Shown here: positions 19,079 through 29,534 of the stretch, piece by piece
Numbering within the stretch: the first letter of the stretch is position 1
Layout of the letters: every line of letters begins with the position of its first letter
Assembly: GCA_028866835.1 (NCBI GenBank)
Contig: JAGWHJ010000011.1
Location: forward strand, 1 to 44,485
Source: Microcaldota archaeon
GTDB lineage: Archaea; Micrarchaeota; Micrarchaeia; Micrarchaeales; CABMGC01
Direction: 5' to 3'
DNA length: 44,485 bases
Program-made: the position numbers and the translations under genes
Notes under the pieces: model-generated
Databases searched by the model: none
Told to the model about the DNA's origin: nothing
What the model saw: the letters and a program-made list of their open reading frames with translations, nothing else

Positions 19079-20320
19079 ATGCGAACTAAACTGAGACCTA
19101 TTTCGGACGACCTAGTCGGCGTGAGAAGGGCTACCGGGAGGTTCGAGGTCCAGTTGGAGATACCCCAAACGTCGACGCTTACGGAAAGGGAGATAGACAA
19201 GATACTCGCTGCAAGCAGCTGGAGCGCCAATCCCGCAGCCATTGCGGATGGATACGAGGGAGGAAGGTCCATACTCCTGCGCAGGGACGAGCCGATCAGA
19301 AAGGGGCCCGTCAAGCTAGGCGGCCTGCAGGTCAGCGGCATAGGCTACAAGCGGCTGGAGCTCGGCAACGACCACTTCGGCACTAGCAGGGACAACGGCT
19401 TCCACGAGCCCAGCAGCGAGAATTTCATGGCCATGGTAGGCGGAGGAGACCTGATGTCAACCGCCCGCGCAAGGGGCAGGAAAGTTATCTCCGATACCCC
19501 CAGCTACAGGGCTCTCGGAACGTACACTTCAACCGAGTTGGCGGAGAAGATAAGCAAGACCAACGAGATTAGCGGCGTGCCGCTTGAGAGATTGCTCGTG
19601 CCGCATGTGGAGGCATACGGCAGGTACCTTGCCCCGTCTCTGCAGGGCCGTGACGGTCCGTTCGGCTTCATCGTGTTCCCCGTGCCGGATCCTTCAAAGG
19701 AGAGGGCCATAAACGACTTCCTTAGGCCGTTCCACGCAGCTGTAAAAGGCATGGGCCATGAGGATGCGCTATCATTTTTCCACCGCGATCTCTCCCCATA
19801 TATAGGGATACTCGTGAATGGCCTCAGGGAGCTGCACGACGAAGGCAGAAGGGTGCACCTTCAAACGCACATGGGCAACTTTTACATAATAGAAGGGATT
19901 CCGTACCTTGTGGATTGGGGCACCATGAGGAGGCTGGGCAACAATGCCTATGAGAACATAATCAACAGGTGCCTCGATATAGAACGTCCTGTCGACGACT
20001 ACGCAACCCTATTGCGAAAGATCTTCGCGTCTATCACCGAGGTACAGGCAGGTGAAGGAAAACTGGCCGCATTCGAAAAGGTCCTTTCAGCATACGCAAG
20101 AATCCCGCTTGAGGAGGTTGGCATGGCTCAATTCAGCAGGGCCCTCATCGAGACCTTCGGAAGGTTCCCGACATACGTGGAGGCCTCCGTGGAATGGATG
20201 AAGGCCAGGGGCATGGAGGGATACAGGAACGTCGTGGTCAGGCCTGCAAAGGCGAAGGCAGGAAGAAACGAGCCGTGCCCATGCGGGTCCGGGAAGAAGT
20301 ATAAGCACTGCCATGGCTGA
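19079..20320 (+). CDS. Kinase-fold (SelO/APH-like) protein with C-terminal SEC-C zinc motif
   Basis: A 413-residue protein. The middle resembles a protein-kinase-like fold: GGRSILLRRDEPIRKG near residue 61 could be the nucleotide-binding sheet, VHLQTHMGNFYI (259-270) aligns by eye with the catalytic loop HgDlHpgNil, and YLVDWGTM (276-283) with the metal-binding DxG. The usual catalytic Asp is Gln262 while Asn267 and Asp279 remain, so it is a pseudokinase or, like SelO, an enzyme with altered chemistry such as AMP transfer. Residues 395-413 are a SEC-C zinc motif (EPCPCGSGKKYKHCHG). Family placement is inference. It is monocistronic. Confidence 0.6.
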   Translation: MRTKLRPISDDLVGVRRATGRFEVQLEIPQTSTLTEREIDKILAASSWSANPAAIADGYEGGRSILLRRDEPIRKGPVKLGGLQVSGIGYKRLELGNDHFGTSRDNGFHEPSSENFMAMVGGGDLMSTARARGRKVISDTPSYRALGTYTSTELAEKISKTNEISGVPLERLLVPHVEAYGRYLAPSLQGRDGPFGFIVFPVPDPSKERAINDFLRPFHAAVKGMGHEDALSFFHRDLSPYIGILVNGLRELHDEGRRVHLQTHMGNFYIIEGIPYLVDWGTMRRLGNNAYENIINRCLDIERPVDDYATLLRKIFASITEVQAGEGKLAAFEKVLSAYARIPLEEVGMAQFSRALIETFGRFPTYVEASVEWMKARGMEGYRNVVVRPAKAKAGRNEPCPCGSGKKYKHCHG

Positions 20321-27024: not shown

Positions 27025-27167
27025 TGTGAGAAAAGCAGGGTTATGTATAAACGTTAATCCTTAACAAAAAGCTGCTATCTTGATAAGTTAGACATTCCTC
27101 CATCGCTTCCTATTCCTTCTTCTCCGTTTTTGGGTTATTCCTGCTCTACTCATAGTTTTTCCTCTTC

Positions 27168-27230: not shown

Positions 27231-27261
27231 GGGGAGTCCGTGATTTGAACACGGTCTTGAA
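27231..27261 (-). repeat. 3' fragment of tRNA-Pro, probable att site of an integrated island
   Basis: The first 24 bases (27231-27254) are identical to 29429-29452 of the intact tRNA-Pro, and the next seven (TCTTGAA) match after a one-base gap. The copy covers the acceptor 3' strand, T arm and variable loop and then diverges. The direct orientation and position downstream of the tRNA 3' end are those left when an element inserts into a tRNA 3' half. Confidence 0.7.
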
Positions 27262-27305
27262 GTTAATTCTGATTGCCTGGCTTGCATTTGAACACGCTTG
27301 CTTGT

Positions 27306-28577
27306 TTAATCTAGTAACCATTTCCACAAAGGGATAAAATTTATATTCTGGCCTGAGATATTTTGAATCTTTTCGTAGTCCCAGGTTATAATTGTTAGTT
27401 TTTTACATTTTAGCCCCTTGCCTACCTTTAACAATGACTCAACTTCTGCACCTTTGATGTCTTTTTCTTCTGAGACATGGGTAACTTGCAATAATTCTTT
27501 TATATCGATTCCATCTTTGACGACGAAGTCTACCTCACTATTTGCAATGTCCCTGTAATAATAAAGTTCGGAGATAGGTGTAGCGCCGTATTTCCTCTTT
27601 AATTGTAGAAATACTAGATTTTCCATGAGTCTCCCCTTGTCGTAAGGAAGCCGCCAGGCAAGACCATTATCAGCAAGATAGACCTTCTTTGGCCAGCTGG
27701 ACCTAAGATTGATTTTTGTAGAGTATCTATCAAGGAAAAAGAATACCATTGTATCCTGCAATTTTTCTACATAATCGTATATCGTATTCCTCCCAAAAGG
27801 TATGCCATTTGATTTTAATGAATTTATGACTTTCCTGACACTCATTTCACTTGCAAAGCATTGTGTTACAAAATTGAATATGTATCTGGCAACCTCTATG
27901 CTCTTAGCGTTTTGCCTTTCTACAAAGTCCTTGAAGAATATTAATTCCCTATACTCTACAAGGAGTTTATCTTTGTCTTCTTTACCCAATACTATTTCCG
28001 GGAATCCACCAGACTCAAGATATTTGTTCAGGATATTCTTCAGTTTGCCTACATCACTTAAGTTGTCAGGATTTAATTCTGATTCGTTAGTTGCAACTAG
28101 AAATTCATAGAAGGAAAATGGCAATAAAAGATATGCAACGCCCCTACCCCTAAGTTGCGTAGCTAGTTCTTTAGTAAGCAGCTTTGAGGAAGAGCCCGTA
28201 ACATATACGATGTAGCCTCTGTCAAGCAGTGTCCTAACAAGGCTTTGCCAATCGGTTACGTTCTGTATTTCATCCAGAAATACGCTTTTTGCCTTCCTGC
28301 CACTTACTTCTGCAAAAATTTCTGTTATAACCTTTAGGGAATCTGTAGCAGAAATCCTTTTGAGGGCGATGTCTTCAAAATCAAGATATATTGCTTCGTT
28401 TTTGTTATATTTTGCTATTTCTTGCATCAATAGAGAGGTCTTGCCAGCCCTTCTTGGTCCTATGACAGTTGTAGCTTTCCCGCTTATGACTTTTAAATTT
28501 AGCTCCCTAGGGACAAGACGTTGATTTTTAGTCCTGAGATAATTAGATATATAATCCTTGACCAAGGCGGTTTCCAT
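27306..28577 (-). CDS. AAA_14/DUF4143 ATP-binding protein
   Basis: A 423-residue protein. The N-terminal AAA_14 domain has Walker A GPRRAGKT (40-47), Walker B SVFLDEIQ (about 98-105) and sensor VYVTGSSSKLL; a DUF4143 domain with a winged helix (RKVINSLKSNGIPFGRNTIYDYVEKL) follows, and a restriction-like core near SEVDFVVKDG ends it. The family is common in archaea and bacteria, often in mobile or defence contexts, with unknown biochemical role. It is intact, AT-rich and inside the tRNA-Pro island. A CTTAATAATG box about 27 nt before ATG 28577 suggests a leaderless mRNA, with an inverted repeat further upstream. Confidence 0.85.
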   Translation of the reverse strand: METALVKDYISNYLRTKNQRLVPRELNLKVISGKATTVIGPRRAGKTSLLMQEIAKYNKNEAIYLDFEDIALKRISATDSLKVITEIFAEVSGRKAKSVFLDEIQNVTDWQSLVRTLLDRGYIVYVTGSSSKLLTKELATQLRGRGVAYLLLPFSFYEFLVATNESELNPDNLSDVGKLKNILNKYLESGGFPEIVLGKEDKDKLLVEYRELIFFKDFVERQNAKSIEVARYIFNFVTQCFASEMSVRKVINSLKSNGIPFGRNTIYDYVEKLQDTMVFFFLDRYSTKINLRSSWPKKVYLADNGLAWRLPYDKGRLMENLVFLQLKRKYGATPISELYYYRDIANSEVDFVVKDGIDIKELLQVTHVSEEKDIKGAEVESLLKVGKGLKCKKLTIITWDYEKIQNISGQNINFIPLWKWLLD

Positions 28578-28612
28578 AATAAGTATTACTACTGATACAT
28601 TATTAAGGCTTT

Positions 28613-28633
28613 TTGTATCAGTAATTGATACAA
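28613..28633 (-). promoter_or_regulatory. Inverted repeat upstream of the island ATPase gene
   Basis: TTGTATCA-GTAAT-TGATACAA has perfect 8-bp arms. A further TGATACA half-site occurs near 28593. It lies about 36-56 nt upstream of the ATPase gene's start codon, which is probably also its transcription start, a position suited to an activator or an autoregulator. Confidence 0.4.
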
Positions 28634-28676
28634 TTTATATAACAGCGCCGAGCCACCTCTTGTTTTCAGCCATAAA

Positions 28677-29351
28677 TCAATCACTTTCTTTAAAGCCATT
28701 AAAGAACTCTTTTGCCCCCATACCAATTACTTTATACCTACTATTCTTAACTAAAATGGCTTCTGTATCATAGATTGCAACTACGGAGTAACTGGTATGT
28801 TTTACAGCATTTTCAACGATTGATCTCTGTTTCTCATCAAAATGCGCTGTTACTAGAAACGGTACCAGATTTAGTGCATTAAGATTCTTTAGACCATCTG
28901 GTCTTATATTAACAGAATTGGCGTTTTTCCAATACGCCATCTCTATCGTGGGGCAAACGATATAACTTCCAGCACTAACACCGATATAGATTTTACCCTT
29001 CTCCAGAACCTTAGGTAATATCTTGGTGAAATTACTCCTATTAGCAATATCGAGCAAATAGAAAGTGTTGCCACCTTCAACAAAAACTACATCAACTTTG
29101 TTTAGTTCAGCAATAAGTTTGTCCTTATCTAAAACTTTTAGATCGATCTCTATAACGTCGAAGAAGATATTTTTCAATATTGATCTTGAGTGTTCCATAT
29201 ACTGCTTATCGCTCTTCTGATCACCAGCATTTGGGATATAACCAACAGTGCAATCCTTTAGTGGTTTCTTACTTACCATGGAAAGTTCGGTGACTACTTC
29301 CTTCTGTTCTAGTCCCTGAGAAGAAGATAACAATAATAGCGTAAACGACAT
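28677..29351 (-). CDS. Peptidase S51 (dipeptidase E/cyanophycinase-like) protein
   Basis: A 224-residue Ser hydrolase of the class-I amidotransferase-like fold. Signatures are YIPNAGDQ, VVFVEGGNTFYLLD, the nucleophile elbow IGVSAGSYIV with Ser126, and LVTAHFDEKQR with the probable catalytic His. Relatives cleave Asp-X dipeptides or cyanophycin; a peptide-processing role is likely, the substrate unknown. It lies inside the tRNA-Pro island, 78 nt from the tRNA, and is AT-rich. About 100 nt separate its stop from the ATPase gene start, so it has a separate transcript or long leader. Confidence 0.85.
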   Translation of the reverse strand: MSFTLLLLSSSQGLEQKEVVTELSMVSKKPLKDCTVGYIPNAGDQKSDKQYMEHSRSILKNIFFDVIEIDLKVLDKDKLIAELNKVDVVFVEGGNTFYLLDIANRSNFTKILPKVLEKGKIYIGVSAGSYIVCPTIEMAYWKNANSVNIRPDGLKNLNALNLVPFLVTAHFDEKQRSIVENAVKHTSYSVVAIYDTEAILVKNSRYKVIGMGAKEFFNGFKESD

Positions 29352-29427
29352 TCAATCTATAAATTATTGTTGATAAAGTATTAAAACTGTTCAAAATCCT
29401 GATTCCTAATATAACCCCAAACGCAAA

Positions 29428-29500
29428 TGGGGAGTCCGTGATTTGAACACGGGTCTTGAACTCCCAAAGCTCAAAGCCTACCAAGCTAGCCTAACTCCCC
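29428..29500 (-). tRNA. tRNA-Pro (anticodon UGG)
   Basis: On the minus strand the 73-nt gene folds into a full cloverleaf: acceptor GGGGAGT/ACTCCCC, a D arm with two wobble pairs and loop AGCTTGGTA, anticodon stem TGAGC/GTTCA with loop TTTGGGA, a four-base variable loop, and T arm CCGTG-TTCAAAT-CACGG. The discriminator is A and CCA is not encoded. There is no intron. Its 3' half is duplicated at 27231-27261, showing use as an integration target. Confidence 0.93.
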
Positions 29501-29534
29501 AGTATTGGCGCTAATACTTAAATGAGGGAATATA

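Follow-up and report, generated by a model that had tools for sequence, protein, structure and literature searches.

How did two AT-rich genes come to lie between the tRNA-Pro gene of an uncultured archaeon with a small genome and a displaced copy of the 3′ end of that same tRNA, with no integrase beside them? The stretch of DNA analyzed here (the window, 44,485 nt) is contig 6 of a 1.09-Mb Candidatus Micrarchaeota genome, a draft MAG of 40 contigs that is 88% complete. The closest named records matching the island ATPase are also Candidatus Micrarchaeota, and the relatives compared all come from other genera, none congeneric with the genome of the window. A first-pass annotation described the locus as a small integrase-less genomic island at tRNA-Pro. 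This description is right in that a foreign island is bracketed by the tRNA and its fragment, with a parallel in the relative G020, but it is incomplete, as a casposon-type end at the tRNA-proximal edge was missed. The present analysis adds this end, which we read as the survivor of a casposon, an orthologous single-gene island in G020, an AbiE counterpart in G017 and the likely defense character of the cargo. The features are listed in Table 1.

Table 1. Features of the tRNA-Pro island and of comparable loci in relatives
Feature	Position	Strand	Basis
Displaced tRNA-Pro 3′ fragment, distal island end	27231..27261	-	Repeat search and reading by eye; equivalents in G020 and G017
423-aa AAA_14 + DUF4143 ATPase, PADLOC candidate defense family PDC-S01	27306..28577	-	Pfam, PADLOC 3e-86, composition, structure model
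Near-perfect palindrome TTGTATCAGTAATTGATACAA, between TATA-like box and ATPase start	28613..28633	.	Direct reading
224-aa peptidase S51 family protein, absent from the G020 island	28677..29351	-	Pfam 2.2e-33
Casposon-type terminal repeat (GGGGTTATATTAGGAATCAGGATTTTGAACA), left end only	29388..29418	-	Matrix from casposon ends of five relatives
CCCATTTGCGTTT, between tRNA end and terminal repeat, at the place of a casposon target duplication	29419..29431	-	14-bp duplication at the equivalent position in G017
Intact tRNA-Pro (TGG), insertion target	29427..29501	-	ARAGORN; same gene with conserved upstream neighbors in relatives
Five Micrarchaeota casposons	L029:4184-14936; L338:1378-11685; L339:7364-17141; L340:1339-14423; L341:4113-12617		
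tRNA-Ala cassette loci in many Micrarchaeota genera, sometimes tandem	L084 (8322-10428), L111 (3825-13177), L082 (7003-11004), L183-L212		

tRNA-Pro and its 3′ fragment bracket the island

The tRNA-Pro (TGG) is the only tRNA that ARAGORN finds in the window. A repeat search gives a 24-nt exact direct repeat (27231–27254 and 29429–29452) that corresponds to the T arm and acceptor of this tRNA and reads GGGGAGTCCGTGATTTGAACACGG on the plus strand; the probability that it arose by chance is negligible. By eye, the copy continues past the 24 nt for another 7 nt (TCTTGAA) after one missing G, so that it spans ~32 nt with one gap. The fragment has the same orientation as the tRNA and lies 2.2 kb away on its 3′ side. 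The duplication at this distance and an orientation that fits insertion into the tRNA 3′ half were both noted in the first-pass annotation and are confirmed, with the correction that the copy is slightly decayed. Its remarks on the enclosed genes hold as well. Both genes are AT-rich (GC 36–37%): the ATPase gene has a GC content of 0.374 and a GC3 of 0.373, and the S51 peptidase gene 0.360 and 0.338, far below the 39 other ORFs of the window (GC 0.527 ± 0.029, GC3 0.677 ± 0.077). The GC step coincides with the repeat ends. Between tRNA-Pro and the fragment Pfam finds the ATPase and the peptidase only, and no integrase. The locus thus has both the tRNA/fragment bracket and the foreign content, in composition and patchiness, of a tRNA-targeted genomic island.

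The repeat might instead be an old tRNA pseudogene, a rearrangement scar or an assembly artefact with no relation to the AT-rich genes. The slight decay of the fragment and the draft state of the 40-contig MAG would fit such an origin. However, the same bracket with an orthologous ATPase is present in G020, which was assembled independently (contig JAJYWY010000031.1). This largely refutes the whole explanation, including the pseudogene origin that had been named earlier as a refuting case; with the GC step at the repeats and the patchy occurrence of both genes also against it, we consider it extremely unlikely.

The same tRNA-Pro in relatives

G020 belongs to another genus of the same family. 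Its tRNA-Pro (TGG) is followed by the ATPase alone and then by a tRNA-Pro 3′ fragment, a unit of ~1.5 kb. The ATPases of the window and G020 share 73% protein identity, whereas the linked host genes are less alike (DUF2666 29%, HTH protein 61%, ribosomal L40e 61%), which favors horizontal transfer. DNA homology between the two loci starts ~60 nt upstream of the ATPase and extends through the gene. In G017, of a third genus, tRNA-Pro and a 3′ fragment enclose an AbiE pair. In G245 tRNA-Pro (TGG) is immediately followed by a tyrosine integrase, and a 61-nt copy of the tRNA lies 8 kb further on. Since defense genes, a casposon (described below) and an integrase element occur at the same tRNA in these relatives, the site is a docking place common to several kinds of mobile DNA.

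Relatives were also compared for an empty site, as had been proposed. The upstream half is found without the island: G007, G010 and G023 keep the order CDC48 - L40e - HTH - DUF2666 - tRNA-Pro with the ATPase missing behind the tRNA, and in G173 a homolog of the neighboring membrane protein adjoins tRNA-Pro, with no ATPase within the 312 nt available. No relative examined gave an empty site complete with its two flanks, because the left flank, a 21-codon basic ORF and a dehydrogenase, is unlinked to tRNA-Pro in these genomes. Both the ATPase gene and the S51 gene are patchy among relatives. The 21-codon ORF (27088–27153, minus strand) lies directly beyond the fragment and encodes a very basic product (MSRAGITQKRRRRNRKRWRNV); its DNA is ~80% conserved in several relatives, and the product may be a small ribosomal protein of the eL41 kind.

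The island genes

The PDC-S01 model of PADLOC covers residues 31–422 of the ATPase, nearly its whole length. Much of the Walker A motif, the DE of DEIQ, Glu319, Glu348, Asp350 and Gln364 are invariant across 66 members, nearly all archaeal. The structure model is confident (pLDDT 91.8), and Foldseek relates it to AAA+ proteins (Orc1/Cdc6, CED-4, TnsC) while leaving the C-terminal domain unresolved. Judged by its residues, this C-terminal part could be a nuclease-like domain without the usual lysine. A PDB sequence search gave no full-length relative, and a search of viral contigs gave two distant matches only. PDC-S01 is described as the fourth most common defense across prokaryotes; its members occur very widely as stand-alone genes, in both bacteria and archaea, and it is classed as a single-gene candidate lacking validation (PMC12988326). 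The cargo of the island is likely to be defense-related, with the ATPase as a candidate antiviral protein. The palindrome TTGTATCAGTAATTGATACAA in front of the ATPase gene is a possible operator; it is only partly conserved in G020. The S51 gene occurs in 20 of 162 genomes. Its best relative (52%) is found in G150, there too immediately behind a tRNA (tRNA-Glu).

Casposons in Micrarchaeota relatives

The 10.8-kb element of G017 has its left end 11 nt behind the CCCC of the same tRNA-Pro. It carries 31-nt inverted repeats (94%), Cas1 (6e-57) and a PolB-like gene (6.8e-7), and is flanked by a perfect 14-bp duplication, CCCGAGCTAATCAA; by structure it is a casposon. Related Cas1 genes (60–62% identity) lie between similar inverted repeats in G025, G029, G027 and G006, three of them at tRNA-Glu. 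These Micrarchaeota elements have a Cas1 of ~400 aa and inverted ends GGGGTTATATATAA..., and no description of casposons in Micrarchaeota was found in the literature searched. The order in G017 is tRNA-Pro, casposon, AbiE pair (L029:14937-16572) and a 34-nt tRNA-Pro 3′ fragment. As the AbiE pair and the fragment lie beyond the casposon, this locus represents a fragment-flanked defense cassette separated from its tRNA by a casposon. In G013, a stretch of ~3 kb behind tRNA-Pro (L040:3365-6525) is bounded by casposon-type inverted ends (76%), with no Cas1 match in the genome; it is possibly a non-autonomous casposon.

A casposon-type end at the tRNA-proximal edge

A weight matrix was built from one end each of the five casposons (G017, G025, G029, G027 and G006), with the window excluded, and both strands of the window were scanned. 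The best of all positions is 29418 on the minus strand, with 23.2 bits against 13.5 for the next. The site starts 10 nt behind the CCCC of tRNA-Pro, and the fit holds at both termini of its 31 nt. A looser and wider nhmmer profile of the terminal inverted repeats ranks the same site first, but with a weak E value of 0.68, so the assignment rests on the matrix score and on a position specified beforehand. In G020 the corresponding site scores lower, at 13.9 bits, and ranks third within 18 kb.

The position also agrees with what is known of casposon targets. The A. boonei casposase requires TCAAATC and, after 8 bp, a CC that marks the edge of the segment to be duplicated, and it duplicates 14–15 bp (PMC6614799). 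The 3′ region of the window tRNA-Pro has this TCAAATC/8 bp/CC layout. With the end at its tRNA-Pro target, the window lacks the 14–15 bp duplication, the inverted pair and Cas1. No second copy of CCCATTTGCGTTT adjoins an end anywhere in the window; position 19875 has one mismatch and no adjacent terminal repeat and is taken as chance. The matrix scan finds no right-hand terminal repeat in the window. A right-end candidate at 27038 (plus strand) was rejected, with a weak nhmmer score of 5.7 bits and no matching duplication. Cas1 was not detected in the genome of the window (draft, 88% complete). From its match and its place we read 29388–29418 as a surviving solo casposon end, which would mean that this tRNA has served two types of mobile element.

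A simpler account needs no casposon at all: the island would be a plain integrase-less tRNA island, both genes having come in a single tyrosine-integrase event with the integrase lost afterward, and GGGGTTATATTA would be only a promoter or tRNA-Pro trailer. In favor of it, a TATA-like box lies in this stretch, 60 nt ahead of the S51 start; of 29 distinct tRNA-Pro genes, 12 are followed by similar sequence, in many cases with no second end visible; and the nhmmer profile is weak. Against this, the sequence is the true inverted end of Cas1 elements in all five casposon genomes, the motif is found at none of 84 other tRNAs, and the site fits both 31-nt termini, exceeds every other window position by 10 bits and lies at the casposase distance. 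We consider this account unlikely. The related suggestion from G173, that GGGGTTATAT is an ordinary native trailer of tRNA-Pro, was dropped in view of the inverted pairs in the same five genomes.

The opposite extreme would make the entire island a non-autonomous casposon, or what is left of one, with both genes as cargo and the tRNA fragment incidental; this appears quite improbable. It would account for the casposon-type end at one edge, and the ~3-kb unit of G013 offers a model with such inverted ends and no Cas1 match in its genome. However, the right end and the second target duplication are missing, and casposase duplicates 14–15 bp, whereas the repeat here spans 24 nt or more of the tRNA, T arm included. 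In G017 the fragment, like the AbiE cassette, is on the far side of the casposon, and no such ATPase is found in the four casposon loci examined.

Tyrosine integrases and mobilization

Tyrosine integrases of ~315 aa are common across the order directly behind tRNAs and on the same strand (Glu, Gln, Leu, Arg, Val, Asn and Pro). At such loci (L035, L036, L037 and L143-L182) a shared arm motif like ACGACGACAAA is followed by a copy of the tRNA T-loop. A search of the genome for an integrase, proposed earlier as a check, succeeded in part. Four tyrosine integrases are present, three of them behind tRNA-Glu, tRNA-Arg and tRNA-Leu, and none known to target tRNA-Pro was found in this 88% complete draft. 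Considering how common tRNA-targeting integrases are in the order, the G245 case and these four enzymes, a tRNA-Pro integrase that acts in trans or has since been lost is plausible.

tRNA-Ala cassettes and the wider association of the ATPase with tRNAs

A broader finding is a set of integrase-less tRNA-Ala cassettes with a conserved noncoding arm of ~200 nt before the tRNA fragment and with defense cargo. In G026 the tRNA-Ala array begins with the intact tRNA and a 4.4-kb unit, after which an ATPase lies between two fragments; in G023, tRNA-Ala fragments separate three ATPases, and one of its units contains an AbiE pair. An arm search of 164 genomes gives clear matches in many genomes across the order; 59 are counted with a match, a large share of which match just a 22-nt tRNA stretch. 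A recognizable tRNA-Ala 3′ half follows 24 of 34 extracted arms. Next to the arm lie ATPases, a BsaWI-type restriction enzyme with a methylase, a PIN-domain protein and an AlbA_2 protein. The arm has no match in the genome of the window, where only 44 nt separate the ATPase stop from the fragment. Some tRNA-Ala genes contain hairpin-like introns (L111:3825-3927, L079:8827-8929, L080:6840-6940), and these hairpins resemble others right behind tRNAs and in cassette arms (AAAACTT...AAGTTTTATCAA type).

Within 300 nt behind a same-strand tRNA or fragment lie 7 of 51 ATPases against 9 of 500 other ORFs (odds ratio 8.7, p 2e-4); the sample is 40-odd Micrarchaeota loci picked for the ATPase, and as the loci are related the p value is approximate. 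This enrichment raises the question whether the AAA_14-DUF4143 ATPase could itself catalyze recombination or insertion for a one-gene element directed at tRNA ends. It is the sole gene of the G020 unit, it and the tRNA share one strand at the bracketed loci, and its AAA+ fold is near TnsC and Orc1. However, among 107 relatives, mostly from other archaeal groups, tRNA brackets occur in Micrarchaeota only, and the occurrence of the ATPase elsewhere without a bracket counts against such a role. The same tRNA-Ala cassettes hold other genes in its place, and the family is widespread as stand-alone genes (PMC12988326). A recombinase function of the ATPase is thus very unlikely.

Taking the tRNA-Pro and tRNA-Ala loci together, we tentatively suggest, at less than even confidence, a defense-gene cassette economy in Micrarchaeota. 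Integrase-less units of 1–3 genes (PDC-S01, AbiE, restriction-modification, PIN, AlbA_2), each ending in a tRNA 3′-half copy (tRNA-Ala with the ~200-nt arm, or tRNA-Pro), would be stacked one after another behind the intact tRNA; tRNA-targeting tyrosine integrases would mobilize them in trans, and casposons would use these tRNA ends too.

Discussion

The explanation we prefer, with moderate confidence, is a layered site: a defense-gene island that entered by site-specific recombination with a recombinase from elsewhere, and a later casposon of which one end survives. In the first step, a small cassette with a PDC-S01 ATPase, a putative defense gene, would have entered the 3′ half of tRNA-Pro, restoring the tRNA and leaving its original 3′ end as the fragment at 27231. 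As the cassette has no integrase, the recombinase would be a tRNA-targeting tyrosine integrase, supplied in trans or since lost. In the second step, a casposon placed like the intact one of G017 would have inserted ~10 nt past the 3′ end of the tRNA and later been lost by deletion, with only the left terminal repeat remaining. The S51 gene, which G020 lacks, may have arrived with the casposon event or separately. The island would presumably be immobile at present.

The locus resembles the Islander-type tRNA islands of tyrosine integrases in its intact tRNA, its displaced 3′ fragment of the same orientation and the foreign genes between them (PMC4383910). It differs in that there is no internal integrase, the units are only 1.5–2.2 kb with one or two genes, and a casposon-type end lies at one edge. 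The Islander survey demands an integrase and at least 2 kb (PMC4383910), and these filters make units like the present island invisible to it. With Family 2 casposons (Aciduliprofundum boonei AciBoo-C1 and Nitrososphaerota NitNCS1-C1), which are inserted at tRNA-Pro (PMC6614799, PMC6563490), the window shares the place just behind the tRNA-Pro 3′ end, the TCAAATC/CC layout and a casposon-type terminal repeat. Unlike them, it has no Cas1 or PolB, a single end and no verified duplication; the intact casposon is that of G017. The ATPase matches the PDC-S01 family of PADLOC (PMC12988326) and is found here in tRNA-flanked cassettes. Hitcher elements, CALIN cassette arrays and tycheposons (PMC11389934) likewise have cargo without its own recombinase and are proposed to move by helper enzymes, whereas the host here is an archaeon and mobilization in trans is presumed.

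Across the window locus and its relatives, one tRNA-Pro gene is used by tyrosine integrases, casposons and integrase-less defense cassettes. Two questions become testable: whether cassettes flanked by tRNA halves move in trans, and whether PDC-S01 is antiviral. The locus suggests a route by which very small archaeal genomes may gain single-gene candidate defenses such as PDC-S01.
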